From Oscillospiraceae bacterium (lineage in GTDB: Bacteria; Bacillota; Clostridia; Oscillospirales; Ruminococcaceae), in assembly GCA_016281125.1 (NCBI GenBank), contig JAEEIA010000037.1, forward strand, positions 1 to 64,000: DNA of 64,000 bases, given 5' to 3'. Each line of letters starts with the position of its first letter. Positions within the stretch are counted from its first letter, which is position 1. Positions 4,160 through 29,749 of this stretch are shown in pieces. Both the position numbers and the translations under genes were made by a program. The notes beneath the pieces are model-generated. The model made no database searches. It had not been told where the DNA came from and worked only from the letters and a program-made list of their open reading frames with translations.

Positions 4160-4240
4160 AAAATCGTAATACTTGCGGCTTGTGTGCAGTCTGAAATGCA
4201 GACGGGCCGGAACAAGCAACTGTGCATATGAGGTTTGGTG

Positions 4241-5338
4241 ATGGGGATTTTTGATCGGTTCCGTTCCTTGATGGAGCGGATGGAGCAAAAGGAGCAGCCT
4301 GATACCGGAAAGAATGAAATCGCTGTATCTGACAGCGATGCCGCGCCTGATTTTCCGGAAATCGTGATAGATGTGCATGCGGAACCCGGAAAGGATGCAG
4401 CAGTCATCTGTGAAAAGCTGAAACGGATTATTGAACTTTCCAAAGCGCTTCATGCCTGTAATCGGTGGTGGTATTATGATGCGGATCCGCCGCTTGCTCG
4501 GCAGGAGATCCTGAACTGGTGCAAGGAGAACGGTCTGCTGCTGCCGGAGGCATATATTGCGTGCCTGACCGTAGCAGGCCGCTTTGTCACAGATTACTGC
4601 TCAACGACCGGTTACTTCCGCGTGGAGCGGTTTCACCTTGACTGGCCGCTTGACCAGTATTTCACCGCAGATCACAAGCGGCAGTTTGAGAAAAAGATTC
4701 CGTTCAAGGAGTGCATCGGGTGGCTCGATCACCACTGCATCTATTATGATGTGTTCACCCGTGAGTTGTATCTGGAGCATCAGCGTTATCAGTATACTCC
4801 GATCAGAGATTTCGCAGCTGAGATTCTTGATCCGGTGACCGTACACCTGGAGGAGCAGCTTGCAAAGCAGTCTGTTTACCGGCAGCTGATGGAGGAGAGC
4901 AAAAGCAATCCGCTCAGACCGATGTACGATCAGCTGCTGCGGTTTGCGGGGAACGGCGATGTGCCTGCAATGGGCATTCAGCTGGAACCGCCGGCTGCCG
5001 AAGAAGAAATTGTCCGGTGGGAGCAGGAGAACGGCATGCAGCTGCCTGCTGAATACCGGAACTGGATCCGGATCTCAAACGGCAGTGAATTTCATTACCG
5101 GTTTATCCTCAGTCTGGAGCGTCTGCGCAGGGCATACCGTCTGGATCCGATCGACGGCACGGAGTATGTGATTCTGGCCGGAATCTCCGGCTGCTGCGAT
5201 TATCTCGTATTCAATTCCGAAACCGGAACGTATAAGGTGCTGACGGAGGATCATGAACTTCGGGACGCAGAAGGCTTTGCGGAAGAAGTGTTCCTGGACG
5301 CTTTTGAATCTATGGAAGAAGATATGGAATGTGAATAA
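4241..5338 (+). CDS. SMI1/KNR4 (SUKH)-like domain protein, possible immunity protein
   Basis: 365 residues from the ATG at 4241 (GAGG at 4230, 7-base spacing; in-frame TTG 4235 and GTG 4238 fit worse). There is no signal peptide, so it is probably cytoplasmic. An acidic N-terminus is followed by two similar halves: residues about 85-200 (EILNWCKENGLLLPEAYIACL) and about 245-365 (EEEIVRWEQENGMQLPAEYRNW, then GSEFHYRFILSL...ISGCCDYLVFNSETG). Both show the W..NG..LP..Y signature of SUKH domains. SUKH proteins are often immunity proteins of contact-dependent toxins, but many have other roles. The gene stands alone between a perfect promoter and a terminator, with no toxin next to it. Confidence 0.65.
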   Translation: MGIFDRFRSLMERMEQKEQPDTGKNEIAVSDSDAAPDFPEIVIDVHAEPGKDAAVICEKLKRIIELSKALHACNRWWYYDADPPLARQEILNWCKENGLLLPEAYIACLTVAGRFVTDYCSTTGYFRVERFHLDWPLDQYFTADHKRQFEKKIPFKECIGWLDHHCIYYDVFTRELYLEHQRYQYTPIRDFAAEILDPVTVHLEEQLAKQSVYRQLMEESKSNPLRPMYDQLLRFAGNGDVPAMGIQLEPPAAEEEIVRWEQENGMQLPAEYRNWIRISNGSEFHYRFILSLERLRRAYRLDPIDGTEYVILAGISGCCDYLVFNSETGTYKVLTEDHELRDAEGFAEEVFLDAFESMEEDMECE

Positions 5339-5380: not shown

Positions 5381-5414
5381 CTGTTTGATGCAGCACCCCG
5401 GTCAGCATCGGTAC

Positions 5415-5430
5415 TGTGACAAATGTCACA
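5415..5430. promoter_or_regulatory. Perfect CRP/FNR-type operator upstream of the phosphonate operon
   Basis: TGTGA-N6-TCACA with perfect symmetry, extended by one more pair (CTGTGAC-AAAT-GTCACAG, 5414-5431). This is the classic consensus for CRP/FNR-family regulators. Its centre (5422.5) lies about 64 bases before the start predicted from the -10 at 5475-5480 (a class I activator position) and about 111 before the start from the -10 at 5522-5527. The regulator is not in this window. Confidence 0.6.
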
Positions 5431-5451
5431 GAAGTGATGACTTGCAGCATC

Positions 5452-5480
5452 TTCACAATCCGCACCGGATATAGTATGAT
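5452..5480 (+). promoter_or_regulatory. Possible upstream promoter P1 of the phosphonate operon
   Basis: TTCACA (5452-5457), 17 bp, TATGAT (5475-5480). It is weak by itself, but positioned as an activator-dependent promoter relative to the CRP/FNR-type palindrome. Confidence 0.4.
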
Positions 5481-5498
5481 AGTATCAGCAGATGACAC

Positions 5499-5527
5499 TT
5501 GAAAGAAGCGTGCAGAAGTGGTATAAT
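5499..5527 (+). promoter_or_regulatory. Promoter P2 of the phosphonate operon
   Basis: TTGAAA (5499-5504), 17 bp, TATAAT (5522-5527), about 30 bases before the plsC start. It is the best promoter for the eight-gene run ending at 14760. Confidence 0.75.
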
Positions 5528-5558
5528 AAATTGACTTCACTGAAAGGACAGAACTTTA

Positions 5559-6218
5559 ATGAAAAAGAAAAACATGGTGATGTACCGGTCGCTCAGGCTG
5601 ATATTCAAACCGCTGTTTTCCCTTTTGTTCCGCCCGGAGATCATCGGACGGGAGCATATTCCCGCTGAAGGCGCTGCCGTGATCGCGGGCAACCACATGC
5701 ATGCACTGGATCCGATCTTCGTGGACATCTGCACGAAACGCGTTGTATGTACCCTCGCCAAAAAAGCGCTGCATGACGGTGCATTCGGGTTTCTGTTCCG
5801 GGCAGCCGGAACGATCCCGGTGGATCTGCACAGCGCGCACAATCCGGATGCGCTGCATGCAGCCGTTGATGCACTCCGCAGCGGACAGCTCGTGAATGTG
5901 TCGCCGGAGGCCAAGCGCAATTATACGGATGAGCTGCTGCTGCCGTTCAAATACGGCGCGGCTGTCATGTCACAGCGCACCGGCGCGCCGGTTGTGCCGT
6001 ATGCGGTCTCGGGTACATACAAGCCGTTCCGGGGCAAGGTTACGATCTGCTTCGGGGAACCGATTTTCCCAGAGGACAGAACGCCGGATGAGATCAACCG
6101 TGCGCTGTACGGTGCAGTCGCGCAGCTGCTCGAACGGATCATGCTGCCGGAAATCCGCAGAACCAAACGGCTGACGGCCTATGATGCATGGGGTGAAAAA
6201 CATGAAAAGACATCTTGA
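5559..6218 (+). CDS. plsC: 1-acyl-glycerol-3-phosphate acyltransferase family protein (PlsC-like)
   Basis: 219 residues. It has the acyltransferase motif I H-X4-D at H46/D51 (NHMHALDPIF) and motif II (GTIPVDLH). Motif III is altered: where PlsC has FPEGTRS this protein has SPEAKRN (about 115-121). A PVVPYAVSG strand follows. The family transfers an acyl chain to lysophosphatidate or a similar acceptor at the inner face of the membrane. The ribosome binding site AAAGGA is 8 bases before the ATG. As first gene of the phosphonate operon, overlapping the ligase gene by 17 bases, it probably acylates a glycerol-type acceptor used in the same pathway rather than serving bulk phospholipid synthesis; that role is inference. 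Confidence 0.85.
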   Translation: MKKKNMVMYRSLRLIFKPLFSLLFRPEIIGREHIPAEGAAVIAGNHMHALDPIFVDICTKRVVCTLAKKALHDGAFGFLFRAAGTIPVDLHSAHNPDALHAAVDALRSGQLVNVSPEAKRNYTDELLLPFKYGAAVMSQRTGAPVVPYAVSGTYKPFRGKVTICFGEPIFPEDRTPDEINRALYGAVAQLLERIMLPEIRRTKRLTAYDAWGEKHEKTS

Positions 6219-7842
6219 TTATCCGCAGTGCTCCGTATATGAGCACATCAGACAAAAGGCTGAACAGTACGGCAAAGCATGTGCCGTGGAATACTTCGGA
6301 CGCAGAATTTCATTCAGCGAGCTGATCCGTGAGATTGACCGCACGGCATGCGCACTGACGGCAGCGGGCGTCAAAAAGGGCGACAGCGTTTCGATCTGTC
6401 TGCCGAATGTCCCGCAGGCGATTTTCCTGTTTTATGCAGTCAGTAAGATCGGTGCCGTGTCGAATATGATCCATCCGCTCTCTGCGGAGGACGAGATCAT
6501 CCGCGATATCCGCCTGACGAAAAGCCGGTTCATCTTTGCACTGGATATGATCGGGGACAAGCTGGAAAAGGTCGCGGCCAGAACGGAGCTCGATCTGGCG
6601 GTGACGGTTTCTCCGGCGGACGGCATGTCTGCGCTGATGAAGGCGGGCTATTTTCTGAAAAGCCTGAAGGAGCACACGCCGCGTTCCTCGTTCATGAGCT
6701 GGAAGAGCTTCCTTTCCATGGGCGATTCCGAATCTGCTGATCTGCCGCAGAACGACGGCAAGGCCGACGACTGTGCGGCAATCCTGTACAGCGGCGGCAC
6801 GACCGGCAAGCCCAAGGGCATCATGCTGACGAACCTGAACTTCAATGCACTTGCGCTGCAAAGTATTGATGCGTGCGGCTGTCTGACAAAGGGCGACCGC
6901 GTGCTCTCCGTGATGCCGGTATTCCACGGCTTCGGCCTCGGTGTCTGTATTCATACGGTGCTGACGTTCGGCGGCACGGCAGTGATTCTGCCGAAGTTCA
7001 ACGTCAAAGAGTTTGATAAGCTGATTTTCAAATACAGACCGAATGTCATCGCCGGTGTGCCTGCAATCTATGAGGCTATGCTCCGCAGCAAGGGCTTCCA
7101 GGGGCAGTCGCTTGATTTTATCAAATGTGTGATTTCCGGCGGTGATTCCCTTGCGGCCAATACGAAGATCAAGCTGAACGAAATGCTCCGCAGTCACGGA
7201 TGCAAATGCACCGTGCGCGAGGGCTACGGCCTGACGGAATGCGTGACCGGCAGCTGCCTGACGCCGGACGGCTGTACCATCTCCGAAACCTGCGGCCTGC
7301 CGTATGCGGATACGGATTACCGCATTGTCGATCCGGAAACCGGGAAGGATGTTCCGGCGGGTGAAACCGGAGAAATCGTGCTGAGCGGGCCAACGGTGAT
7401 GAAGGGCTATTATCATGAGCCGGAGGAAACCGCGCAGACACTCCGCATGGATACAGGCGGGAAAATCTGGCTGCACACGGGCGACCTCGGCTATCAGGAC
7501 GAGCAGGGCTATGTCTATTTCCGGCAGCGGTTAAAGCGCATGATCGTATCCAACGGCTACAATATCTACCCGCAGAATATTGAAAACGTCATCAGCTCTC
7601 ATGCGCAGGTCGCAATGTGTGCGGTCGTCGGCGTGCCGGATGCGCAGCGCGGACAGATTGCCAAGGCCTACGTGATGCTGCGCGGAGCTTGCTCCGAGGA
7701 GAAGATGCGCACCGAGCTGATGCATCTGATGAAAAAGTCAGTTGCAGCCTATGCGATTCCGAAGGAGATCGTGTTTGTGAACAGCTTTCCGAAAACGCTG
7801 GTCGGAAAGATTGCGTATAACGAGCTGATTGCAGAGGGGTGA
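6202..7842 (+). CDS. AMP-forming acyl-CoA/acyl-ACP synthetase family ligase
   Basis: 546 residues from the ATG at 6202, behind GGGGTG. ANL-superfamily motifs are complete: the P-loop at about 197-210 (YSGGTTGKPKGIMLTN), GYGLTEC (about 345), the HTGDLGYQDE hinge aspartate (about 425), and the C-terminal catalytic lysine in KTLVGKIAY. It would activate a carboxylic acid, most likely a fatty acid given the PlsC partner, through an acyl-adenylate. It overlaps plsC by 17 bases, and its stop lies 5 bases before the next start. CoA or ACP as acceptor cannot be decided; no carrier-protein gene lies in the operon. Confidence 0.88.
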   Translation: MKRHLDYPQCSVYEHIRQKAEQYGKACAVEYFGRRISFSELIREIDRTACALTAAGVKKGDSVSICLPNVPQAIFLFYAVSKIGAVSNMIHPLSAEDEIIRDIRLTKSRFIFALDMIGDKLEKVAARTELDLAVTVSPADGMSALMKAGYFLKSLKEHTPRSSFMSWKSFLSMGDSESADLPQNDGKADDCAAILYSGGTTGKPKGIMLTNLNFNALALQSIDACGCLTKGDRVLSVMPVFHGFGLGVCIHTVLTFGGTAVILPKFNVKEFDKLIFKYRPNVIAGVPAIYEAMLRSKGFQGQSLDFIKCVISGGDSLAANTKIKLNEMLRSHGCKCTVREGYGLTECVTGSCLTPDGCTISETCGLPYADTDYRIVDPETGKDVPAGETGEIVLSGPTVMKGYYHEPEETAQTLRMDTGGKIWLHTGDLGYQDEQGYVYFRQRLKRMIVSNGYNIYPQNIENVISSHAQVAMCAVVGVPDAQRGQIAKAYVMLRGACSEEKMRTELMHLMKKSVAAYAIPKEIVFVNSFPKTLVGKIAYNELIAEG

Positions 7843-7847
7843 AGACG

Positions 7848-9179
7848 GTGAAAACGAACAACAGAGTGCTGCTGGTGCATCCGGAGATTTCCCGGAACAA
7901 GTATAATTTTGCAGGTGTCATTGACAATGAACCGCTGGAGCTGGAATATATCTCCGCACTGCTTAAAGAGCGCGGCTATGCGCCGGAAATCTGGGACGGC
8001 CAGGTCGAGAAGCAGAAATTTGCTGACCGTCTGCGTGCGGTGAAGCCGTTTGCGGTGTATGTCTGCGGCAGAACGCGGCAGGAAAACTTCATGAAGGAAT
8101 ACTGTGCCGCAGCGAAGGCGGCAGGCTGCATCACGATGGTCGGCGGGCTGCATGTGCAGCTCAATTACAGCCGTTTCTTTTCCGAGGATATCGACTGGAT
8201 TCTGACCTCGTTCGATATTTTCCACATTGCGGAGATTCTCTCCGGCAGCGAACCCGCACACAGCGTCTGTCTGCGGCATGAAGGAAAGTGGATCATCAAG
8301 CCCGCGCAGCCGTTTGACATCAGCCGTCTGCCGCGGCCGGACAGAAGCTATTTTTACGCGCACACCGACCGTTACCGCTATCTGGAGCTGCTGCCCTGTG
8401 CGCATGTCCGTTCCGCGTACTGCTGTCCGTACCGCTGCAAGTTTTGCGCCCGCAATCAGATGAACTGCGGCAATTACACCGTCCGCCCGATTGAGGACGT
8501 CGTGGACGAAATCGCTTCGATTCAGTGTGACAATATCTATTTTATCGACGACGATTTTCTCTTTGACCGCAGGCGCATCGAACGCTTTGTCGCATTGATC
8601 CGGCAGCGCGGCATCCGCAAGAAATATGTCTGCTACGGCAGGGCGGATTTTGTCGCTGCGAATCCTGACCTGATGCGTCAGCTGAAAGATATCGGCTTTT
8701 ACTATGTGCTGACCGGTCTGGAGGCCGCTGACGGCAGGCATCTGAAAGCGTATAACAAAAAAACCGGAACGCAGACAAATGCAGAGGCTGTCCGGATTCT
8801 GAATGAAACCGGAATCAATATGATGGGCATGTTCATTGTCGATCTGGATTTCCGGCGCGCGGACTTTTTCAGCATCTACAAATGGATCCGCCGCCATGAC
8901 TTAAAGCATACGGCCATTTCGATTTACACGCCGGAGATGAGCTCGGAACAGTTTGCGGATTACCGCAGCAGACTGATCACAACCGATCCGGGACAATGGG
9001 ATTATCTCCATGTGGTCGCAAAGCCCTCAAACATGAGCGTGAAGCGGTACTATTTTTATTACCATATTCTTGTGGTGATGCTGTTCCTGAAAGGAAAGCG
9101 TGACGGCATCTACGATTTTCTGGATTACGGCTTCTACATTCGTTCCATGGTGAAAAATCTGTTCAGATTCGGAGGATAA
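7848..9179 (+). CDS. Cobalamin-binding radical SAM enzyme (Fom3-like architecture)
   Basis: 443 residues from GTG 7848 (AGAGGGG ends 8 bases upstream; the in-frame GTG at 7839 sits inside that site). Residues 5-140 form a B12-binding Rossmann domain (VLLVHPEI...LEYISALLKERGYAPEIWDG; VGGLHVQLNY). The radical SAM cluster motif is C193-x3-C197-x2-C200 (CPYRCKFCARN), followed by NIYFIDDDF and a TIM-barrel. The C-terminal 150 residues look like those of other B12 radical SAM enzymes. In phosphonate pathways such enzymes methylate unactivated carbons, as Fom3 does on cytidylyl-hydroxyethylphosphonate. Lying in an operon with a cytidylyltransferase-PEP mutase makes that role attractive, but substrate and reaction are inference; modification of a lipid chain is an alternative. 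Confidence 0.88.
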   Translation: MKTNNRVLLVHPEISRNKYNFAGVIDNEPLELEYISALLKERGYAPEIWDGQVEKQKFADRLRAVKPFAVYVCGRTRQENFMKEYCAAAKAAGCITMVGGLHVQLNYSRFFSEDIDWILTSFDIFHIAEILSGSEPAHSVCLRHEGKWIIKPAQPFDISRLPRPDRSYFYAHTDRYRYLELLPCAHVRSAYCCPYRCKFCARNQMNCGNYTVRPIEDVVDEIASIQCDNIYFIDDDFLFDRRRIERFVALIRQRGIRKKYVCYGRADFVAANPDLMRQLKDIGFYYVLTGLEAADGRHLKAYNKKTGTQTNAEAVRILNETGINMMGMFIVDLDFRRADFFSIYKWIRRHDLKHTAISIYTPEMSSEQFADYRSRLITTDPGQWDYLHVVAKPSNMSVKRYYFYYHILVVMLFLKGKRDGIYDFLDYGFYIRSMVKNLFRFGG

Positions 9180-9180
9180 C

Positions 9181-9861
9181 ATGGCAAAGTCAACCTATCA
9201 GAACCCAGTCAAAAAGATGATCCCGAGCAAGCTGGAAACCGGCTTTCAGCAGTTTCTGTATCAGCACGTCGGCAAGCATATCCCGAAGAGCATGACGCCG
9301 AATGATATGACGCTGGTCGGCGCGCTCGGCGGACTCGCGGCTGTCATCTTCACGCTGCTGACGAATCTCAGCCCGTGGTTCTTCCTCGGGACGGTTGCCG
9401 GGATTGCCGTGCATCTGATTGCTGATGATCTTGACGGCTATATCGCCCGCAACCGCGGCATGTCGTCCAGAGCAGGCGCGTATTTTGATCTGATTACGGA
9501 TGTGCTGTTCTCGACCTTTCTGCTGCTGGCGATGGGCCTGACGCCCTATTGCAGCATGAAGCTGGCGGCGTTCGCAGCCCCGCTGTACGGCGTCACGAAT
9601 GTCACGATCATGAACTACATCATCTACTTTAACGAGTTCCAGTTCCCGCGCCTCGGCCCGATTGAAGCGCATCTTTCCTATGCGGCGGTCTGCATCCTCG
9701 GCCTGATCTTCCGGACAAAGGAGATTGTCACAATCGGTTCCGTCGGCTTCACGGTGATGGATCTGGTTATGCTGATCGGCATGATTCCGATGTACTATGA
9801 GATGATCCGGCTTCAGATCCGGCTGTTCCGCAGACTGAAGGAGACCGACCAAAGTGAATGA
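9181..9861 (+). CDS. CDP-alcohol phosphatidyltransferase family membrane enzyme
   Basis: 226 residues, with about six membrane helices. The catalytic signature D-x2-D-G-x2-A-R-x8-G-x3-D-x3-D is perfect: D82, D85, G86, A89, R90, G99, D103, D107. The family moves a phospho-alcohol (or phosphonyl) group from a CMP-activated donor to an alcohol such as diacylglycerol. The operon also encodes PEP mutase fused to nucleotidyltransferases, so the natural reading is transfer of a CMP-activated phosphonate to a lipid alcohol, giving a phosphonolipid with a direct C-P bond. It starts 1 base after the radical SAM stop. Use of an ordinary CDP-alcohol cannot be excluded. Confidence 0.9.
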   Translation: MAKSTYQNPVKKMIPSKLETGFQQFLYQHVGKHIPKSMTPNDMTLVGALGGLAAVIFTLLTNLSPWFFLGTVAGIAVHLIADDLDGYIARNRGMSSRAGAYFDLITDVLFSTFLLLAMGLTPYCSMKLAAFAAPLYGVTNVTIMNYIIYFNEFQFPRLGPIEAHLSYAAVCILGLIFRTKEIVTIGSVGFTVMDLVMLIGMIPMYYEMIRLQIRLFRRLKETDQSE

Positions 9862-10504
9862 AATCTTTATTGTGCTGATCCGAGCGCATACCGGGCTCGG
9901 CAGCATTGCAAGGCTGTTCACGCGGTATCCGTATACCCACGCCGCGCTCAGCCTTGACCGCTCCCTGACAGATTTTGTCAGCTATTCCCGGCGGTATCAC
10001 AGCTTTCCGTTTGATGCGGGCTTTACGCATGAGTACCGCGATTACTACGCCTTCGGAAAGCATAAGGATGTGAAAATCAAGGTGTTCCGGCTTTGCCCGG
10101 ATGACGCGCATATGCAGGAGATCCGCCGTTTTCTTGCACAGTGTGAATCCGACCGCGAGGAGATTTTCAATCTGTATGCCATGATGACGATGCCGCTTCT
10201 GCACGGCCTGCCGATTTGTAAGGCGCATAACTGCATGTCATTTGCCGCAAAAATCGCGGAGCTGTCCGGTACTGTGCAGCTGACAAAGCCGTGTGAACGC
10301 TGCTCGATTCCGGAGCTGGACGCGATGCTCAGCCCGTATCTGTATTTTGAGGGCATGCTCCCGCGGCAGAGCTCGGCCGGGTACAAACGGTATATGCGGC
10401 CGTTTGCGCCTGTGAAGTTCCTGACGGATATGCTGCGGCTGAACGGACAGCTGATCAGCCGCCTGCTTTTGAAACGCAATCAGAAAAGAAGTGATAACTG
10501 GTGA
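9854..10504 (+). CDS. Permuted NlpC/P60 (papain-fold, LRAT/YiiX-order) protein
   Basis: 216 residues from GTG 9854 (AAGGAG at 9838; overlaps the previous gene by 8 bases). The histidine comes first (RYPYTHAALSLD, His29) and the candidate nucleophile later (KAHNCMSFAAKI, Cys127). This is the circularly permuted order of LRAT, H-Rev107 and YiiX-type proteins, not that of classical NlpC/P60 peptidases. There is no signal peptide, so it probably acts in the cytoplasm or at the inner membrane face. Permuted members include lipid acyltransferases and phospholipases. In this lipid-like operon, acyl transfer or remodelling on the product is a reasonable guess; an amidase role is the alternative. Confidence 0.65.
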   Translation: MNEIFIVLIRAHTGLGSIARLFTRYPYTHAALSLDRSLTDFVSYSRRYHSFPFDAGFTHEYRDYYAFGKHKDVKIKVFRLCPDDAHMQEIRRFLAQCESDREEIFNLYAMMTMPLLHGLPICKAHNCMSFAAKIAELSGTVQLTKPCERCSIPELDAMLSPYLYFEGMLPRQSSAGYKRYMRPFAPVKFLTDMLRLNGQLISRLLLKRNQKRSDNW

Positions 10505-12519
10505 AGGCACTGATTCTGAATTCCGGGCTCGGCAGCCGGATGGGTACGCTGACGGCGAAACATCCGAAATGCATGACGGAAATCGCGCCCGGTGAAACAA
10601 TCGTCAGCAGACAGCTTGCCCTGCTGTCAGAGCGCGGCATCCGCGAGGTTGTGATGACAACCGGCGCATTTTCCGATGTGCTCGAATCGTACTGCCGCGG
10701 TCTGGAGCTGCCGCTGCACATCACATTTGTGAAGAATTCGCTCTATGCGGAAACAAACTATATATACTCGATTTACTGTGCGCGGGATGCGCTGATGCAT
10801 GAGGAAATCCTGCTGATGCACGGCGACCTCGTATTTGATTCGACAGTTCTGGACGATGTGCTTGCTGCGGAGAACAGCTGCATGACGGTGTCATCCGCCC
10901 TGCCGCTCCCGGACAAGGATTTCAAGGCGGTGATTGAAAACGGGCTTGTGCAGAAGGTCGGCGTGGCATTCTTTGATCATGCGCTTTCTGCGCAGCCGCT
11001 CTATCATCTGAAACAGGCGGAATGGGGCAAATGGCTCTCAGGGATCGTCGCGTACTGCGAATCCGGGGATCCCGCAAATCGGAAATGCTACGCGGAACAT
11101 GCGCTGAATGAGATTCCTGACAAGCAGATTGCACCGCTGGATTTCGGAGAACGGCTCTGCGCGGAAATAGACAATGCAGACGATCTGGCCGCCGTATCCG
11201 AACGGCTTTCGGCACTCCGCGAACGGACGGTGTATCTTTGCTTTTCGACGGATATGATTCACAGCGGACATATCGCGCTGATCCGGCGGGCGAAGAGCTA
11301 CGGACGCCTGCTGATCGGCGTGCTGACGGACGAAGCGGTTGTGACCTATAAGCGCTTTCCGCTGATGCCGTTCCCGGAGCGCAAGGCGATGTTTGAGGCA
11401 ATCGCAGGCGTGTGGAAGGTCGTTGCACAGGATACGCTCAGCTACCGCGCCAATCTGGAGGCGTACCGCCCGGACTTCGTCCTGCACGGGGACGACTGGC
11501 GGACGGGTGTGCAGCAGCAGATCCGCGCGGAAGTGATTTCTGTGCTGAACGGCTACGGCGGGCGGCTGATCGAAACACCGTATGCGAATGACGACGCATA
11601 CCGCGAGCTGGAAAAGCGCGCCCGTGCGGAAATGTCCATGCCGGATTTCCGGCGTGCGCGGCTGAAAAAGGCCATCGCCATGAAGGGGCTGGTCACCGCG
11701 CTGGAGGCGCACAGCGGCCTGACCGGTCTGATAGCGGAGAAAACCGCCGTGTCCGAAAACAGCGGTCTGCGGCAGTTTGATGCAATGTGGGTTTCCTCGC
11801 TCTGTGATTCCACGGCCAAGGGCAAGCCGGATATTGAGCTGGTTGATATGACGTCCCGGTTCCGGACGATTGATGAGATTATGGACGTCACGACGAAGCC
11901 GGTCATTTTTGACGGCGATACCGGCGGCCTGACCGAGCATTTCGTGCATACGGTGCGCACGCTGGAGCGCATGGGCGTATCCATGGTCGTGATCGAGGAC
12001 AAGACCGGGCTGAAAAAGAACTCGCTGTTCGGGACGGAGGCCACGCAGACGCAGGCCGAAATTCCGGATTTCTGCGCGAAGATCCGCGCAGGCAAAAATG
12101 CGCAGAAGACTGACGCGTTTATGATCTGCGCACGTATCGAAAGCCTGATTCTGGAGCGGGGCATGGAGGACGCGCTGAACCGTGCCTTTGCCTATACGGC
12201 GGCGGGCGCGGATGCGATCATGATTCATTCGCGCAAATCCGATCCGGCAGAGATTCTGACGTTTGCCGACCGGTTCCGCGCAGCCGATTCCGTGACGCCG
12301 CTTGTCGTGGTGCCGACCGCGTTCAATGCTGTCACGGAGGAGGAGCTCAAAGCACACGGAATCAATGTGGTGATTTACGCCAACCAGCTGACACGGAGCA
12401 GCTTTCCGGCGATGCAGAAAGCCGCCGAGCTGATTCTGACGCATCACCGCGCAAAGGAATGCGATGCGTTCTGTATGCCGTTCCAGCAGATTATTCGTTT
12501 GATACCGGAGGATATTTGA
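10501..12519 (+). CDS. aepX: LicC-like nucleotidyltransferase / cytidylyltransferase / phosphoenolpyruvate mutase triple fusion
   Basis: 672 residues; GTG start overlapping the previous stop (GTGA). Three domains are visible. Residues 1-235 are a LicC/PntC-type sugar-nucleotidyltransferase fold (ALILNSGLGSRMG, HPKCM, HGD109). Residues 243-380 are a TagD/Fom1-type cytidylyltransferase (STDMIHSGHIALI, HxGH at H254-H257; VLHGDDWRTG). Residues 395-672 are PEP mutase with the full signature E499DK-x5-N507S (EDKTGLKKNS) and FDGDTGG. PEP mutase makes the C-P bond by turning phosphoenolpyruvate into phosphonopyruvate; a nucleotidyltransferase can then activate the downstream phosphonate with CTP. Fusion of one cytidylyltransferase to PEP mutase is known (Fom1); two different nucleotidyltransferases on one chain are unusual. 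Confidence 0.95.
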   Translation: MKALILNSGLGSRMGTLTAKHPKCMTEIAPGETIVSRQLALLSERGIREVVMTTGAFSDVLESYCRGLELPLHITFVKNSLYAETNYIYSIYCARDALMHEEILLMHGDLVFDSTVLDDVLAAENSCMTVSSALPLPDKDFKAVIENGLVQKVGVAFFDHALSAQPLYHLKQAEWGKWLSGIVAYCESGDPANRKCYAEHALNEIPDKQIAPLDFGERLCAEIDNADDLAAVSERLSALRERTVYLCFSTDMIHSGHIALIRRAKSYGRLLIGVLTDEAVVTYKRFPLMPFPERKAMFEAIAGVWKVVAQDTLSYRANLEAYRPDFVLHGDDWRTGVQQQIRAEVISVLNGYGGRLIETPYANDDAYRELEKRARAEMSMPDFRRARLKKAIAMKGLVTALEAHSGLTGLIAEKTAVSENSGLRQFDAMWVSSLCDSTAKGKPDIELVDMTSRFRTIDEIMDVTTKPVIFDGDTGGLTEHFVHTVRTLERMGVSMVVIEDKTGLKKNSLFGTEATQTQAEIPDFCAKIRAGKNAQKTDAFMICARIESLILERGMEDALNRAFAYTAAGADAIMIHSRKSDPAEILTFADRFRAADSVTPLVVVPTAFNAVTEEELKAHGINVVIYANQLTRSSFPAMQKAAELILTHHRAKECDAFCMPFQQIIRLIPEDI

Positions 12520-12520
12520 A

Positions 12521-13648
12521 ATGCAGAAGCTGATGACTGCAAGTGCAGATTACGCCGAGCTTGACAGCTATTTTGCTGCGTCCGGCGCGAAATGCGTCCT
12601 GCTTGTTTGCGGCAGCTCATTTGAGAAGCTGCCATTGCATCCCTATTTTGATACTTTGGAGCAGCGCTGCGGGATCCGCGCGGTGCGCTTTTCCGATTTC
12701 CAGCCGAATCCGGAGTTCCGCTCCGCCGTAAAGGGGCTGTCTGTATTCCGTGCGCACGGCTGTGATATGCTCGCGGCGGTCGGCGGCGGCAGCGCCATGG
12801 ATGTTGCCAAATGCATCAAGCTCTGCCTCACCTCGTCTAATCCGGAGCATGCGCTGCATGTGCCGTTCGTGCCGAATACGGTTCCGTTCCTTGCTGTCCC
12901 GACGACGGCGGGCTCCGGCAGTGAGGCGACGCGCTTTGCCGTTGTGTACGAAAACGGCGTGAAGCAGTCTGCGGCGGATGACAGCATTCTGCCCGATGCG
13001 GTGCTGTTTGATCCGGATACGCTGAAAACGCTCCCGCTATATCAGAAAAAATCGACAATGCTGGATGCGGTCTGTCACGCGGTTGAGTCGTTCTGGTCGG
13101 TGCATTCGGATGCGGAGAGCATGAAGTATGCCGCAGCGGCGCTCCGGCTGGTCATCGCCAATGAGGAGGGTTATCTTTTCGGCACGGACGAGGGCTGCCG
13201 CAATATGCTGAAAGCGGCGCATTTTGCGGGCAAGGCAATCAATGTGACGAAAACGACCGCAGGCCATGCGATGTGCTATAAGCTGACAACGCATTACGGG
13301 ATTTCGCACGGCCATGCAGCGGCGCTCTGTGTCAAGGCGCTGCTGCCGTATATGTATGCACATCCGGAGCTTTGCATTGACGGGCGGGGCGCTGCACATC
13401 TGGAACAGGTTTATGCAGAGATTGCGGAGGCAATGGGCTGCGCGTCCGCCGCACAGCTGCCGGTGTTTTTCGCGTCCTTTGCCGATTCGCTGCTCCCTGG
13501 GATTGATGCGATGGTTTCAGCAGCGGATCTGCAAATGCTGACGGATTCGGTCAATACCGAGCGGCTGCAAAACCATCCGGTGCGCCTGACTGCGGATACG
13601 ATCCGGCAGCTGTATGCGCAGATTCTCGGGAAGGAGCAGCTGCTATGA
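12521..13648 (+). CDS. Iron-containing alcohol dehydrogenase, probable phosphonoacetaldehyde reductase
   Basis: 375 residues; GGAGGA lies 8 bases before the ATG. Group III metal-dependent alcohol dehydrogenase features are clear: the nucleotide-binding GGGSAMDVAK (88-97), TTAGSGSEATRFAV, PDAVLFDPDTL, and the metal-ligand histidines in DAVCHAVESF, KTTAGHAMCY and ISHGHAAAL. Between PEP mutase and phosphonopyruvate decarboxylase, the expected job is NAD(P)H reduction of phosphonoacetaldehyde to 2-hydroxyethylphosphonate, as FomC and PhpC do. No aminoethylphosphonate transaminase is present, which favours the alcohol over the amine as intermediate. Its stop overlaps the decarboxylase start (ATGA). 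Confidence 0.85.
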   Translation: MQKLMTASADYAELDSYFAASGAKCVLLVCGSSFEKLPLHPYFDTLEQRCGIRAVRFSDFQPNPEFRSAVKGLSVFRAHGCDMLAAVGGGSAMDVAKCIKLCLTSSNPEHALHVPFVPNTVPFLAVPTTAGSGSEATRFAVVYENGVKQSAADDSILPDAVLFDPDTLKTLPLYQKKSTMLDAVCHAVESFWSVHSDAESMKYAAAALRLVIANEEGYLFGTDEGCRNMLKAAHFAGKAINVTKTTAGHAMCYKLTTHYGISHGHAAALCVKALLPYMYAHPELCIDGRGAAHLEQVYAEIAEAMGCASAAQLPVFFASFADSLLPGIDAMVSAADLQMLTDSVNTERLQNHPVRLTADTIRQLYAQILGKEQLL

Positions 13649-14760
13649 GGGCGGAGGATTTTGTACGGATCATTGGTGCGGATTATTTTACCGGCGTACC
13701 GGATTCCCAGCTGAAAGCGCTCTGTAATTATCTGATTCATACCTACGGCACGGATTCGCAGCATCATATCATTGCGGCGAATGAGGGGAACTGCACGGCG
13801 CTGGCGGCAGGGTATCATCTTGCAACCGGAAAGGTGCCGGTTGTCTATATGCAGAATTCCGGTGAGGGCAATCTCATCAATCCGGCGGCATCTTTGCTGC
13901 ATCCGCAGGTGTATGCGATTCCGGTTCTGTTTGTGATCGGCTGGCGCGGCGAGCCGGGCGTGCATGACGAGCCGCAGCATATTTATCAGGGTGCGGTCAC
14001 GCTGAAGCTGCTGGAGGATATGGAGATTGCCTCCTTTGTACTCACGCCGGAAACGACGGCGGACGAGCTGGCCGCAGTGATGACGGATTTCCGCAGGCTG
14101 TTTGCGTCCGGCAGACAGGCGGCGATTGTCGTGAAAAAAGGCGCGCTGACCTGCGAACAGCCCGTTGTATACAAAAACAGCAACACAATGCTGCGTGAGG
14201 AGGTCATCCGGCATATCGTGCAGGTGTCCGGGGCGGATCCTGTCATCTCCACGACCGGCAAGGCGAGCCGTGAACTGTTTGAGCTTCGCGCAGCATCCGG
14301 GCAGAGCCATCAGTACGATTTTCTGACGGTCGGCTCCATGGGGCATGCATCCTCGATTGCGCTGGGGCTTGCGCTCAGCAGGCCGGAGCTGCGGTTCTGG
14401 TGCATTGACGGCGACGGCGCCGTGCTGATGCATATGGGCAGTCTTGCCGTGACGGCACAGTATCACCCGGACAATCTGATTCATGTGGTGATCAACAACG
14501 GTGCGCATGAAACCGTCGGGGGAATGCCGACTGCGGCCTCCGGATGCAGCATTGCGGAAATTGCAAGGGCCTGCGGGTATCCGCATACGGTTTGTGTCGG
14601 TACATTTGAGGCGCTTGACCTTGCGCTGGCAGAAGCCGCAGGCAGACATGCGCTCTCGCTGATTGAGGTGAAATGTGCAATCGGTGCGCGTGCCGATCTC
14701 GGCCGCCCGACAACGACCGCCCTTGAAAACAAGCAGAATTTCATGGCTTATCTGAAATGA
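13645..14760 (+). CDS. aepY: Phosphonopyruvate decarboxylase
   Basis: 371 residues, the usual length for the family. It is a thiamine-diphosphate enzyme: ADYFTGVPDSQLKALCNY at the N-terminus, the catalytic glutamate in AANEGNC (E47), YMQNSGEGNLINP, and the cofactor motif IDGDGAVLMHMGSL followed by VVINNGAHETVGG. It decarboxylates phosphonopyruvate to phosphonoacetaldehyde, the irreversible step that pulls the unfavourable PEP mutase equilibrium. AAGGAG sits 8 bases before the ATG, which overlaps the dehydrogenase stop. It is the last gene of the operon, 3 bases before a strong terminator. Confidence 0.95.
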   Translation: MRAEDFVRIIGADYFTGVPDSQLKALCNYLIHTYGTDSQHHIIAANEGNCTALAAGYHLATGKVPVVYMQNSGEGNLINPAASLLHPQVYAIPVLFVIGWRGEPGVHDEPQHIYQGAVTLKLLEDMEIASFVLTPETTADELAAVMTDFRRLFASGRQAAIVVKKGALTCEQPVVYKNSNTMLREEVIRHIVQVSGADPVISTTGKASRELFELRAASGQSHQYDFLTVGSMGHASSIALGLALSRPELRFWCIDGDGAVLMHMGSLAVTAQYHPDNLIHVVINNGAHETVGGMPTAASGCSIAEIARACGYPHTVCVGTFEALDLALAEAAGRHALSLIEVKCAIGARADLGRPTTTALENKQNFMAYLK

Positions 14761-14763
14761 ACA

Positions 14764-14802
14764 GGCAGTCCCCGCGGTGAATCCGGGGACTGCCTTTGCT
14801 TT
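14764..14802 (+). terminator. Terminator of the phosphonate operon
   Basis: A perfect 11-bp GC-rich stem (14764-14774 with 14784-14794) with a 9-base loop, followed by TTTGCTTT. It ends the eight-gene run cleanly. Confidence 0.85.
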
Positions 14803-14809
14803 GCGGCAC

Positions 14810-19994: not shown

Positions 19995-21839
19995 TTATTC
20001 CGCATCCGGATGTTCGCCCGACCAGCCGCGTTCCGGCAGGCAGGAGAGATACGACATGTCATCACCGGAAATTGTAAAGCCGAAAATGTCAAGATTTTCC
20101 AGCATTCTCTTTGTGGAAGAGGATTTCGGGATGACCGGAATGCCGCGCTGATTAAGGTACCGGAGCAGAAGCTGCGCATTGGAGCAGCCATATTTTGCGG
20201 CAATTTTAGTGATTTCCTGGTCTTGCAGCAGCTTTGCTCGCCCGAGCGGACTCCATGCCTGCGGCAGGATGCCCTGCTCTCTGAGATATGCAAGCGTATA
20301 TTCCTGCATGTATCCTGCGTGCAGTTCCAGCTGATCGACCATCGGGCGGATTTCTGCAATTTCCAGCAGCGGGCGCAGATGATGCGGCAGGAAGTTTGAT
20401 ACACCGACGGCGCGCACCTTGCCCTGTTTATACAGCTCCTCCATCGCAATCCATGACTGCTGCACCTTGTCGAACCATTCCGGATCATCCGCTTCATTTT
20501 TCGGCCAGTGAATCAGGTACAGATCCAGATAATCGGTTTTCAGTCTGCGGCAGGATTCTGCAAAGGAAGCGAACGTATTTTCTCTGCCGAGATCCGTCGG
20601 CCAGACCTTGCTGCACAGGAAAATATCTGCACGCGGAATCCCGGACTGCGCAATCGCTTCCCCGATTTCCGCCTCATTGTTGTAGAATTTCGCCGTATCA
20701 ATATAGCGGTATCCCGCAGCGAGCGCATCTGTAATCGTCTGCGTGCCGTGCTCCGTGGAGAGATACGAGCCGAAGCCGACTGCGGGAACCGTCACGCCGT
20801 TTGGCAGGACGAATTCTCTTTTGGATTCTGTATAACCCGCTGCGTCAAGAATGCGATCCAGCAGGCGCATGTTTCTGACGGAAAAATCCTCGGTGATATG
20901 CGGCGTTTGACCGCTGTGGATGCAGGCGTTCATCTGCTCGATTTCCATGCAGTAATTGGAGCCTGCGGTAACGCATTCCGTCCGGGTAATCCGTTCGCCG
21001 TCTGCATTTTTCACGGTGATATCAAAGGAAAGCGTGCCTTCGCCGTTGTATTCTGCGGAAGAGCGGATATAGCCCTTTGTGCCGTGAATGAACAGCCGGT
21101 CATAGCGGTCGCAGGTATCCTTGCCGAGAATCATGCCCGCGTGGAAAGAAGCTCTTGCGCCGTCAGAAAATCCGATCAGCACCGAAGCCATATGATCGAC
21201 GCCGGTGCTGTCCAGCTCGGCTTGCGCTTTGACGTATGATACCGGCGCGTCAATCAGGGAGAGAATCATAGAGGTGCAGTAGCATCCGACGTCGTAAATG
21301 CCGCCGCCGCCCAGTTCCTTGTGCAGACGGAAATCCTCAGTGTAATCCTGCGTCAGAAATGCGGTGTCGATGTAGTCGATTGTTCCGATTTCACCGTCAG
21401 CAATGACCTGCTTCAGCTTTGCGAGAAACGGGCTGTGCAGATATGCAAATGCCTCCATGAGGATGACGCCGTTTTCCTTTGCAGCCCGGAACATGCGCCG
21501 GAGCTCGGCTTCGTTCATGGCGGCCGGCTTTTCGCAGAGTACATGCTTTTTTGCATTCAGTGCTTTGATGACCCATTCACAGTGCAGATTATTGGGCAGC
21601 GGGATATAAACCGCTTCGACGTCCGGGTCGGAAAGCAGTGCGTCATAGCCGTGATATGCTTTCTCAAAGCTGAACCGTTCCTTGAATGCTTTTGCTTTTT
21701 CCGGGTTTCTTCCGGCTATGGCATACAGCCTGCAATTCTTTGCCTGCTGCATGCCGGGAATCGTGCATCCGGCAGCAATGCCTGCCGTACCCAGCACGCC
21801 CCACCGCACCGGCTGATTCCCGTTCCGTTCTTCGATCAT
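19995..21839 (-). CDS. Gfo/Idh/MocA oxidoreductase fused to an aldo/keto reductase
   Basis: 614 residues. Residues 10-335 are a Gfo/Idh/MocA-type NAD(P) dehydrogenase: Rossmann GVLGTAGIA, EKP at HVLCEKPAAMN, a domain break near GGGGIYDVGCY. Residues about 340-605 are a complete aldo/keto reductase: VGFGSYLS, catalytic set YIDTAKFYNNE (Asp, Tyr), CSKVW (Lys), LIHWP (His), GVSNF and the NADP-binding IPKSSS near the end. The start has GGGAGG 7 bases upstream. It is the last gene of the MerR-led run; the gap to the previous stop is 96 bases. The frame is open through the junction, so the fusion is real unless assembled wrongly. The substrate is unknown; a sugar or polyol route is plausible. Confidence 0.9.
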   Translation of the reverse strand: MIEERNGNQPVRWGVLGTAGIAAGCTIPGMQQAKNCRLYAIAGRNPEKAKAFKERFSFEKAYHGYDALLSDPDVEAVYIPLPNNLHCEWVIKALNAKKHVLCEKPAAMNEAELRRMFRAAKENGVILMEAFAYLHSPFLAKLKQVIADGEIGTIDYIDTAFLTQDYTEDFRLHKELGGGGIYDVGCYCTSMILSLIDAPVSYVKAQAELDSTGVDHMASVLIGFSDGARASFHAGMILGKDTCDRYDRLFIHGTKGYIRSSAEYNGEGTLSFDITVKNADGERITRTECVTAGSNYCMEIEQMNACIHSGQTPHITEDFSVRNMRLLDRILDAAGYTESKREFVLPNGVTVPAVGFGSYLSTEHGTQTITDALAAGYRYIDTAKFYNNEAEIGEAIAQSGIPRADIFLCSKVWPTDLGRENTFASFAESCRRLKTDYLDLYLIHWPKNEADDPEWFDKVQQSWIAMEELYKQGKVRAVGVSNFLPHHLRPLLEIAEIRPMVDQLELHAGYMQEYTLAYLREQGILPQAWSPLGRAKLLQDQEITKIAAKYGCSNAQLLLRYLNQRGIPVIPKSSSTKRMLENLDIFGFTISGDDMSYLSCLPERGWSGEHPDAE

Positions 21840-27183: not shown

Positions 27184-29748
27184 ATGAATAACTATGAAAA
27201 GAACAATCTGTTCCAGGCCTCCCAGCTGACCATTCTTCTGAGCCTTTCGGTCTTTTCTGTGATTCTGTCAGTGGAAGCGTTTCTGATGTCATGGGAGCTC
27301 TGGCCGCTGATCCCGATCATGATCGGCGTTTCGGTTTCATGGATGGTGCATATTCAGCAGCGGCTGACCGGCAATCAGCGGCTGTGGCTGTATACGACGT
27401 TCGTGATGTTTTCCTTTTTCTATTACGGGAGCCATCAGACAAGCGTATTTGATACCGTTGCGGTCATGGCAATGATCATGATTCTGTATACCATGGTCTG
27501 CATCAAACCGCTTATCACGTTTTTGCAGATGATCTATTATCTGACGCTCGGATACGGGCTGCTGATGCTGTGGCACAGCGGAGAACGGTTTGATACACTG
27601 CTCTGGTCGCGTGCGCTGATGAATGCAGTTGTCATCACCGCGGTCAGTATCATTTCAAGAACGATCATTGAAAAGTGGACGGAGGTTATGGCGCATTCGC
27701 ACAGTGAGATTGAAAAGCTGACCGATGCGACGGACCGGCTGAACGATTTTCTGGCAAATGTTTCGCATGAAACGCGAACCCCGATCAATGCGATCATCGG
27801 TCTGTCGGGGATCTGCATTGACGAGGAGGAAAATGCAGAGCGCCGCGCGAATCTGATTTCCGTGCGGGAGGCCGGCAGGCGCGTTGCGGAGCAGATCAGC
27901 GATATTCTCGATTTCACGGAAATTGACCGGAAAAAGCTGACGAATCATTATGAGGATTATATGCTGTCCTCTGTGCTGAACGACCTGGTGGAGGAGATCC
28001 GTCCGTTCAAGCCGAAGGAACTGGAGCTGATCATTGACGTGGATCCCGCAATCCCGTCCGTCATGAATACCGACATCAGCAAGCTGCGGAAGATCCTGCG
28101 GCATCTGATTATGAACGGCCTGAAATATACGCATGAGGGCGGCGTGTATGTCCGTCTGTATACGATTCAGGAGAGCTACGGTGTCAATTTGCTGATCAAG
28201 GTAACAGATACCGGCATCGGCATGACGGAGGATGAACTGGAACGGATCTTTGAGCGGTATTTTCAGGCGGATTCCGGCCGCAGCAGACAGGGCGGCGGCC
28301 TCGGCCTCGGCATGACGATCGTGCAGGGCTTTACGGCATCGCTCGGCGGATTTATCCGTGTCAGCAGCAAGCCCGGGGAGGGTACCACGGTGACAGTAAG
28401 TCTGCCGCAGAAGGTCGTGGATCCGGTCAGCTGTATGTCGATTTCCAGGCCGGAAAAGCTCTGTCTGGGCGCATTCCTGCATCTGGACAAGTACGCGAAT
28501 CCGAATGTGCGTGAATACTACAATATGATGATTCACAACATTGTCAAGGGCTTCGGCGTGCAGATGCACCGCGTCGATCATGTTGCGAACCTGAAAAAAC
28601 TGCTTGCCTCCGTGCAGCTGACGCATCTGTTTATCGCGGAGGAGGAGTACGCGACTGCACCGGAGCTGATCGAGTCGATTGCGCAGAAAATCATCACGGT
28701 TGTGGTTGCAAACGACGGCTTCAGACTGCCGGAGGGCTCCAAAGCGCGGATCATGGCCAAGCCGTTTTACTGTTTTCCGGTGGCGGCGATTCTCAATGCG
28801 GAGCACAATCTGGACGCGCTGGATGAACGGATTTCGTTCCCGGGCATCCGTGCGCTGGTTGTCGATGACGAGCCGATGAACCTGACCGTCGCGCAGAATA
28901 TCTTTAAGCGCTACGGGATGAAGGTGACGACGGCGAGCTCCGGTTCAGATGCGCTTGACCTTTGCCGGGAGCGCAGCTTTGATATCGTGTTTATGGATCA
29001 CATGATGCCGGGAATGGACGGCGTTGAGGCACTCAAGCGCATCCGTTCCAATAAGAATTATGCGGAGATTCCGGTCGTTGCACTGACGGCGAATGCAGTC
29101 AGTACGGCGCGGGAAACCTTCCTTGCAGCAGGCTTTGACGGCTTTGTCAGCAAGCCGATTGAGCTGGTTGATCTGGAACGCGTGCTGCGGAAGGTGCTCC
29201 GGAAATCGCTGGTGACCTATCAGTCCGCAGAGCAGAGCAATCCGCAGCCGGAACAGCCGGCAGCAGCAGAGCAGTCTGTGCCGGAGCAGCCCCTGACTGT
29301 TATGCAGCAGCTGAAAGCCTGCGGTTTGAATACCGCAGACGGGCTGAAATACTGTGCAGGCGACGATGAATTCTATCTTTCCATGCTGCGGCAGTTTTCT
29401 GAGGAATATGCAGAGCGTGCGGACAGGATGCAGACGTTCCTTGCAGACGGTGATCTGAAAAATTATGAGATCCTTGTCCATGCACTGAAAAGCAATCTGA
29501 AAATGCTCGGCAGTGAGGCGCTCTCCGAACGGGCGAAGGAAATGGAGTTTGCGGCGAAGGACGGCAATGCCGCGCTGATTGCGGAAAAGCACGGCGTTCT
29601 GAATGACGACTGCCGGAGCCTTGCCGTTGAACTGCTGCGGATTCTCGGCGGAGAATCTCGGCCGGAATCGGATACAGATGAAATCATGGAGTTTCTCCCG
29701 GAGGATGATTCCGTAACGGAATTTGCGCCGGACGGAGAGGAGGGATGA
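27184..29748 (+). CDS. Hybrid histidine kinase with receiver and HPt domains
   Basis: 854 residues from the ATG at 27184 (GAGGAAA upstream). About five or six membrane helices (15-165) lack a recognisable extracellular domain. HisKA follows with His195 (NVSHETRTPINAIIGL) and HATPase_c (TDTGIGMTEDELERIFERYF; GGGLGLGMTIV). Residues about 430-560 form a pseudo-receiver-like segment without a clear phospho-acceptor. A true receiver lies at about 560-675 (LVVDDEPMNLTVA, IVFMDHMMPGMDG). After a Gln/Pro/Ala linker comes a C-terminal HPt domain with the histidine in LVHALKSNLKMLG. This is a full phosphorelay on one chain. It starts 30 bases after the diguanylate cyclase and ends 1 base before the next kinase. 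Confidence 0.9.
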   Translation: MNNYEKNNLFQASQLTILLSLSVFSVILSVEAFLMSWELWPLIPIMIGVSVSWMVHIQQRLTGNQRLWLYTTFVMFSFFYYGSHQTSVFDTVAVMAMIMILYTMVCIKPLITFLQMIYYLTLGYGLLMLWHSGERFDTLLWSRALMNAVVITAVSIISRTIIEKWTEVMAHSHSEIEKLTDATDRLNDFLANVSHETRTPINAIIGLSGICIDEEENAERRANLISVREAGRRVAEQISDILDFTEIDRKKLTNHYEDYMLSSVLNDLVEEIRPFKPKELELIIDVDPAIPSVMNTDISKLRKILRHLIMNGLKYTHEGGVYVRLYTIQESYGVNLLIKVTDTGIGMTEDELERIFERYFQADSGRSRQGGGLGLGMTIVQGFTASLGGFIRVSSKPGEGTTVTVSLPQKVVDPVSCMSISRPEKLCLGAFLHLDKYANPNVREYYNMMIHNIVKGFGVQMHRVDHVANLKKLLASVQLTHLFIAEEEYATAPELIESIAQKIITVVVANDGFRLPEGSKARIMAKPFYCFPVAAILNAEHNLDALDERISFPGIRALVVDDEPMNLTVAQNIFKRYGMKVTTASSGSDALDLCRERSFDIVFMDHMMPGMDGVEALKRIRSNKNYAEIPVVALTANAVSTARETFLAAGFDGFVSKPIELVDLERVLRKVLRKSLVTYQSAEQSNPQPEQPAAAEQSVPEQPLTVMQQLKACGLNTADGLKYCAGDDEFYLSMLRQFSEEYAERADRMQTFLADGDLKNYEILVHALKSNLKMLGSEALSERAKEMEFAAKDGNAALIAEKHGVLNDDCRSLAVELLRILGGESRPESDTDEIMEFLPEDDSVTEFAPDGEEG

Positions 29749-29749
29749 T

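Follow-up and report, generated by a model that had tools for sequence, protein, structure and literature searches.

Gene clusters predicted to make phosphonolipids have been depicted for a lichen Nostoc and for Burkholderia, in which pepM, ppd, a nucleoside triphosphate (NTP) transferase gene and a cytidine diphosphate (CDP)-alcohol phosphatidyltransferase gene stand together with an aminoethylphosphonate (AEP) aminotransferase and a 2-oxoglutarate Fe(II) oxidase (PMC5987646, Fig. 7 legend, adapted from Yu et al. 2013). Nucleotidyltransferase-phosphoenolpyruvate (PEP) mutase fusions of the PntC kind, triple fusions included, are associated with the cytidine monophosphate (CMP) activation of phosphonates, and the two characterised PntCs described there prefer AEP (PMC6697681). 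In the fosfomycin pathway of Streptomyces, Fom1, Fom2, FomC and Fom3 are, respectively, a cytidylyltransferase-PEP mutase fusion, a decarboxylase, an iron-type dehydrogenase and a B12 radical S-adenosylmethionine (SAM) enzyme. Here we describe an eight-gene operon from an Oscillospiraceae bacterium, found within the first 64,000 nucleotides of contig JAEEIA010000037.1 (GCA_016281125.1; this whole stretch is called the window), in which counterparts of the first three occur together with a gene for a B12 radical SAM enzyme. Compared with the fosfomycin pathway, the operon has an additional LicC/PntC-type domain and lipid genes, and its eight genes include no epoxidase family. It also holds the first four of the gene types named above for the Nostoc and Burkholderia clusters; its own are an iron-type alcohol dehydrogenase, a B12 radical SAM enzyme, a PlsC acyltransferase, an acyl-adenosine monophosphate (AMP) ligase and an NlpC-like enzyme. 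The best reading is one of ordinary parts in a new arrangement, a Kennedy-type phosphonolipid pathway set on fosfomycin-like early steps. We think it probable that the operon runs a CDP-choline (Kennedy)-type pathway with a carbon-phosphorus (C-P) head group, in which CMP-activated 2-hydroxyethylphosphonate (HEP) and diacylglycerol (DAG) are predicted to yield a phosphonolipid. What would be new is the hydroxyethyl route and the Ruminococcus-type cassette, neither of which was found in the literature searched; aminotransferase-type phosphonolipid clusters with a CDP-alcohol transferase have been predicted before, in the figure legend already named (PMC5987646).

The original prediction, made from the letters of the window, had described eight tightly packed plus-strand genes between a promoter region and a strong terminator. 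All eight open reading frames (ORFs) are present at 5559-14760, and every junction between them is an overlap or a 1 bp gap, a layout that points to one operon. Pfam and NCBIfam profile searches returned the families as first named for all but gene 5, which matched no family in either collection. The features are as follows.

5414-5431, no strand assigned: candidate operator, the perfect inverted repeat CTGTGACA-AA-TGTCACAG (from the sequence)
5499-5527, plus strand: sigma-70-like promoter candidate, TTGAAA-17-TATAAT (consensus scan, 11/12; a match, not proof)
5559-6218, plus strand: gene 1, PlsC-family acyltransferase with NHxxxxD and the motif III SPEAKRN (PF01553, E 4.4e-20)
6205-7842 (alternative start 6181), plus strand: gene 2, acyl-AMP ligase (PF00501, E 3.5e-81)
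7839-9179, plus strand: gene 3, B12-binding radical SAM enzyme (PF04055, PF02310)
9181-9861, plus strand: gene 4, CDP-alcohol phosphotransferase with the full DxxDGxxAR..GxxxDxxxD motif (PF01066; profile and fold nearest CEPT1/CHPT1)
9854-10504, plus strand: gene 5, permuted NlpC/P60-like (YiiX/LRAT-order) enzyme (alignment, AlphaFold2 model with mean predicted local distance difference test (pLDDT) 91, Foldseek)
10501-12519, plus strand: gene 6, triple fusion of a LicC/PntC-type nucleotidyltransferase (about aa 1-236), a Fom1-type cytidylyltransferase (aa 240-363) and PEP mutase (aa 388-671)
12521-13648, plus strand: gene 7, iron-type alcohol dehydrogenase, predicted phosphonoacetaldehyde reductase (PF00465; TIGR03405 143 bits, below the cut-off of 424)
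13645-14760, plus strand: gene 8, phosphonopyruvate decarboxylase (TIGR03297 454 bits, cut-off 312)
14763-14803, plus strand: terminator-like hairpin (14763-14795) with a T-rich tail (-27.9 kcal/mol, z -4.2)

The hairpin is directly followed by TTTGCTTT, in keeping with the strong terminator first proposed after gene 8; a simple terminator scan of the window did not pick it up. For the promoter region, the candidate at 5499-5527 stands, but such sites show no clear enrichment in the region (13 versus 9.1 +/- 2.9).

The five lipid-type genes form a conserved cassette. The transferase was found in 32 distinct genomes besides the window's, from 29 loci in a named genome collection and, in a sample of 247 genomes of the window's family, from six that include the window's own, with duplicates removed (G210 and G307, and G244 and G306, each count once). 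The recurring order is PlsC, acyl-AMP ligase, B12 radical SAM enzyme, transferase and NlpC-like enzyme, and all five are present in 24 of the 32 genomes; individually, PlsC occurs in 29, the ligase in 26, a full-length B12 enzyme in 28 and the NlpC-like gene in 28. The incomplete cassettes include two cut by contig ends (L060 and L062), one with a mere remnant of the B12 gene (L056), one without the NlpC-like gene (L043), two without the ligase (L048 and L055), and two limited to PlsC and a 44%-identical transferase (L063 and L064). Among the carriers are isolates of Ruminococcus albus (AR67, KH2T6 and 8) and of R. flavefaciens (SAb67 and 007c). One or more phosphonate genes, for PEP mutase, the decarboxylase or the iron-type dehydrogenase, adjoin the cassette, in the same or in divergent orientation, at 12 of the 32 loci, and at 13 when L113, judged from a second contig, is added; a nucleotidyltransferase alone lies beside it at three more (L035, L043 and L048). 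At L113, whose genome also encodes the B12 enzyme, a gene that by eye resembles cobyric acid synthase (493-1968) directly follows the PEP mutase, decarboxylase and nucleotidyltransferase genes. At L048 (7965-12044), the ligase-less cassette is accompanied by a LicC-type nucleotidyltransferase 41% identical to the window's, and no PEP mutase was found in the genome; this is possibly a version with an ordinary phospho head group.

The cassette and PEP mutase also occur together across genomes. A PEP mutase match at E <=0.001 was obtained in 30 of the 34 genome entries searched, that is, in 29 of the 32 distinct cassette genomes, with 26 of 32 over the TIGR02320 cut-off; among 14 well-known control genomes, six had matches at E 0.001 and none passed the cut-off. 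In the 247-genome sample, PEP mutase at >=250 bits is present in 5/6 cassette genomes and in 25/241 others (Fisher p 1.1e-4); the 30 genomes so counted leave out eight of 38 whose TIGR02320 matches are weak (<=137 bits). Because shared ancestry could fake such an association, it was retested inside genera. In the window's genus (30 genomes, cassette in 5, PEP mutase in 10), 5/5 carriers and 5/25 others have PEP mutase (Fisher p 1.8e-3), and in the genus of R. albus KH2T6 (29 genomes, cassette in 7, PEP mutase in 13) the figures are 7/7 and 6/22 (p 1.1e-3); the combined p is 2.8e-5, with kinship inside each genus still contained in it. The reverse association fails, PEP mutase being often present without the cassette, which suggests that the phosphonate core serves other ends too. 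Several members of the genus at first seemed to have the phosphonate core alone; for G020, G024 and G008 this was rejected, since the cassette lies on another contig.

The transferase of gene 4 (226 aa) is the pivot of the proposed pathway. In an alignment of 30 sequences, the Asp, Gly and Ala positions of the CDP-alcohol phosphotransferase motif are invariant and the Arg nearly so. A profile of the family matched CEPT1/CHPT1 first (3e-6, for CEPT1, to 1.6e-5), ahead of CDP-DAG:serine enzymes (1e-4) and AF2299 (1.7e-4). In Foldseek, the structural model (pLDDT 91) likewise matched CEPT1 best (E 2.2e-5, template modelling score 0.73), then AF2299 (1.1e-3) and CDP-DAG enzymes (6e-3 and worse). 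CEPT1/CHPT1 of the CDP-choline pathway are thus the nearest in fold and profile; they share the motif and the reaction proposed here, transfer of a CDP-type head group to DAG, and differ from the window transferase, which is shorter, lacks a Glu/His dyad and would carry a phosphonate. The direction that we favour would run from CMP-HEP as donor to DAG as acceptor. Two of the carriers that belong to the window's genus encode a second CDP-alcohol transferase, 39% identical (G020:C23:27860-28492 and G024:C40:40674-41306).

Gene 6 had been described as a nucleotidyltransferase-PEP mutase; the fusion is there, but it holds two different nucleotidyltransferase domains, one of which was missed at first. 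The first resembles 6pd1, a PntC-type chain named nucleotidyl transferase/aminotransferase (E 5e-8), and 1jyk, a CTP:phosphocholine cytidylyltransferase (E 1e-7). The second (aa 240-363) matches 5x3d (E 1.8e-36), which we take to be the Fom1 cytidylyltransferase domain, and its HxGH is conserved in the four sequences compared. The PEP mutase domain scores 391 bits against TIGR02320 (cut-off 320), so that both Fom1-like domains are present by sequence, with the activities that this predicts. The translation carries EDKTGLKKNS, in agreement with the EDKxxxxxNS signature given for true PEP mutases (PMC6697681). The same source counts triple fusions of PF12804, PF01467 and PEP mutase at 42 of 1485 PEP mutases (PMC6697681).

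The identity of the head group is suggested by the partners of the LicC-type domain. Two genomes encode a nucleotidyltransferase fused to an iron-type dehydrogenase (581 and 582 aa, 58% identical), and at L045 this fusion stands last in one run, behind the cassette, a PEP mutase that lacks the Fom1-type domain, and the decarboxylase. The two functions are separate overlapping genes in L034 and neighbours, away from PEP mutase, in G300 (L119). Since relatives of the LicC-type domain are fused to the dehydrogenase, as the PntC relative 6pd1 is to an aminotransferase, the domain should activate HEP, the product of the dehydrogenase. An orthologue of the dehydrogenase (E <=1e-50) is present in 22 of the 32 carriers; a PhnW transaminase passes the cut-off in one, which also has the dehydrogenase fusion. 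As had been claimed, no transaminase, epoxidase or exporter family was found among the eight genes by Pfam and NCBIfam, and an AEP aminotransferase is absent from the operon, on a search that took in these eight genes and, for PhnW, the 32 carriers, not the window's own genome. A hydroxyethyl rather than an aminoethyl head group is therefore favoured in most carriers.

In canonical PlsC proteins, motif III is FPEGTRS. The 29 sequences aligned here (the window and its relatives, one of 29 relatives having been dropped for length) all keep NHxxxxD but have SPEA(K/G)RN or SPEGERN at motif III, a departure that hints at an unusual acceptor. The succession of PlsC and ligase recalls Aas, which combines an acyltransferase and an acyl-acyl carrier protein (ACP) synthetase in one protein; here the two are separate adjacent genes, and PlsC shows partial matches to acyl-[ACP]--phospholipid O-acyltransferase models, far below their cut-offs. 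In gene 3, the CxxxCxxC cysteines are invariant in 28 sequences, matches to solved structures are weak, and the best NCBIfam models, HpnR (116 bits, cut-off 650) and BchE, stay far below cut-off in a comparison that left Fom3 outside. In the 247-genome sample, orthologues with >=60% identity were found in the six cassette genomes (the window's genome being one of them) and in no others, so that the enzyme occurs in 6/6 cassette genomes and 5/30 PEP mutase genomes. Its distribution follows that of the lipid module, which makes a lipid substrate slightly more probable than CMP-HEP. Methylation of the CMP ester in the manner of Fom3, as had been proposed, is unsupported so far, the models being below cut-off and the gene following the lipid cassette, not PEP mutase. 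At the threshold of that search (E 1e-30 or better), one other genome, from the window's own family, has matches to the B12 enzyme, four tandem paralogues 30-36% identical to it (L115, 6014-16663). Genes for an acyl-AMP ligase and two GNAT proteins lie nearby, and the group may belong to a different lipid or metabolite pathway. For gene 5, the call of a permuted NlpC/LRAT-order protein fits an alignment of 27 sequences, in which His29, Glu60, Asn126 and Cys127 are invariant and His precedes Cys, and the seven best Foldseek rows, which come from three PDB entries, one each for TseH, YiiX and a cysteine peptidase of B. cereus, at weak values of E 2.5e-3 to 0.84. We take TseH, YiiX and 3kw0 to be permuted NlpC/P60 proteins. 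When the 27 homologues were compared with Pfam, no family was hit by more than one of them, the best match being to an unrelated domain of unknown function (E 0.0074). The enzyme may deacylate or transacylate a lipid. A soluble phosphonate natural product such as a fosfomycin-like antibiotic, for which the Fom1-, Fom2- and FomC-like steps and the B12 radical SAM gene would speak, is very improbable: the eight genes contain no epoxidase (Fom4 family included) or exporter family, and what is conserved instead is the set of five lipid-type genes.

The pathway that we infer would run as follows. PEP mutase would form phosphonopyruvate, the decarboxylase would convert this to phosphonoacetaldehyde, and the iron-type dehydrogenase would reduce the aldehyde to HEP, which one or both nucleotidyltransferase domains would turn into CMP-HEP. 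The CDP-alcohol transferase would then pass the phosphonyl group of CMP-HEP to DAG with release of CMP. PlsC and the acyl-AMP ligase could provide the lipid part or acylate it anew. Two further enzymes would modify the lipid, the B12 radical SAM enzyme most likely by methylation of a lipid carbon and the NlpC-like enzyme most likely by acyl transfer or hydrolysis.

A candidate operator precedes the cassette. Its core, GTGACA-NN-TGTCAC, occupies 5416-5429 within a perfect TGTGA-N6-TCACA box (5415-5430) that fits the CRP/FNR type; TGTGAN6TCACA has this single match in the whole window, where 0.07 would be expected. Of the window and 32 loci, 12 of 33 have the core, with at most one mismatch, 5' of the cassette, although these are not 12 independent cases, as some of the loci are close relatives. 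It is exact in the window, L037, L038, L039, L040, L052, L054 and L065 and has one mismatch in L035, L041, L058 (two copies) and L059. In L041, L059 and L065 it sits about 670 bp before PlsC, the L059 copy preceding a nitroreductase gene, and in L052, L054 and L058 it lies between the cassette and divergent phosphonate genes. When the 350 bp upstream of the cassette were scanned in the window and 24 loci (25 stretches), there were seven exact matches versus 0 in shuffles, and nine with at most one mismatch versus 0.015; 13 of the 25, R. albus among them, have no operator within two mismatches. A wider scan took in the window, L015-L025, L032-L065 and L096-L120 whole.

Several results tell against the phosphonolipid pathway proposed above. 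In that wider scan, the split PEP mutase loci have no exact operator match and none upstream, the two distinct one-mismatch matches (L019/L106, which are one place, and L110) lying inside other ORFs. Three of the 32 cassette genomes have no PEP mutase match: in one the contig breaks off immediately behind the cassette, L048 has a nucleotidyltransferase only and no ligase, and L064 has the 44%-identical transferase. Three of the 29 matches, all beside the cassette, are below the cut-off, two of them full-length (G169, 260 bits; G320, 292 bits) and one a 95-bit fragment at a contig end (G304). Under the strict TIGR02320 cut-off, the 247-genome table becomes 4/6 versus 24/241, and the within-genus sets overlap with the 32 carriers, so that the tests are not mutually independent. 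The neighbourhoods of the transferase gave the five-gene order and the adjoining phosphonate genes in the numbers stated above, but for 16 of the 32 cassettes the stretch fetched contains no phosphonate gene, in some of them because the contig ends. No neighbour examined recurs across all bare cassettes as a replacement; most of these genomes have a PEP mutase locus elsewhere. Modules so often apart could be two unrelated operons joined by chance, a reading that we regard as highly unlikely: the modules adjoin in 13 of 32 genomes in both orientations, and the co-distribution already opposes it, 12/12 cassette genomes in two genera having PEP mutase.

Other results of this kind concern the transferase and the head group. 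The Glu/His dyad of eukaryotic CHPT1/CEPT1 (G2ExxD3HxxD4) is absent, the window having GAYFDLITD, so that donor and acceptor are not fixed by the motif; the pair is proposed to act in CHPT1 and is described as missing in most bacterial enzymes (PMC10182977). NCBIfam matches of the transferase are all below cut-off, the best being archaetidylinositol phosphate synthase (43 bits versus 180). This would suit an ordinary phosphatidyltransferase that joins CDP-DAG to the hydroxyl of HEP or another alcohol, with the CMP-phosphonate used elsewhere, for example on glycans via LicD, and in one carrier, G008, the triple fusion does adjoin a LicD gene. We consider such an enzyme unlikely, as profile and fold are closer to CEPT1/CHPT1 than to CDP-DAG enzymes, a nucleotidyltransferase adjoins the cassette even without a neighbouring PEP mutase (L035, L043 and L048), and the eight genes include no LicD or glycosyltransferase family. 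In ten of the 32 carriers, including R. flavefaciens SAb67, the only iron-type dehydrogenases are distant ones, and no PhnW match in these ten exceeds 36 bits; either the reductase or the head group must therefore be different there. A phosphonolipid headed instead by AEP or by something made from it downstream, HEP being in some carriers no more than an intermediate or a side product, would accommodate them, as it would the aminotransferases near PEP mutase in L097 (278 bits) and L099 (115 bits), neither of which reaches the PhnW cut-off, and the aminotransferase of the predicted Nostoc and Burkholderia clusters (PMC5987646, legend). It is improbable in view of the operon's lack of an aminotransferase, the single PhnW in a carrier that also has the dehydrogenase fusion, and the fusion itself. 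The phosphonolipid pathway of the original prediction is thus partly supported, by the tie between cassette and PEP mutase, the likeness of the transferase to CDP-choline:DAG enzymes and the dehydrogenase fusion. The support does not so far extend to Fom3-like methylation, and a hydroxyethyl head group is favoured for the 22 carriers with the orthologue, while the step stays unexplained in the other ten.

A bolder version of the phosphonolipid pathway is possible, if rather doubtful. The B12 enzyme could C-methylate the head group, either once it is activated or once it is bound to the lipid; alternatively, the NlpC-like enzyme could acylate the head-group hydroxyl. The result would be a new class of membrane lipids, hydroxyethyl- or hydroxypropylphosphonyl lipids with the fosfomycin precursor as head group, under one dedicated operator in many carriers. 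Because the cassette singles out one transferase and four helper genes, and does so in species available as isolates, the last step of a phosphonolipid pathway can be tested directly. Regular phospholipases are stated to be unable to cleave phosphonolipids (PMC5987646), and, if the pathway is true for R. albus and R. flavefaciens, they could constitute a little-noticed C-P pool in ruminants.

Outside the operon, the window encodes a SUKH-1 (SMI1/KNR4) domain protein just upstream (4235-5338) and an oxidoreductase of the GFO/IDH/MocA type fused to an aldo/keto reductase (19995-21839). A single 907-aa ORF (29723-32446) combines a histidine kinase and a receiver with a C-terminal DegV domain, which we take to belong to a fatty-acid-binding family.

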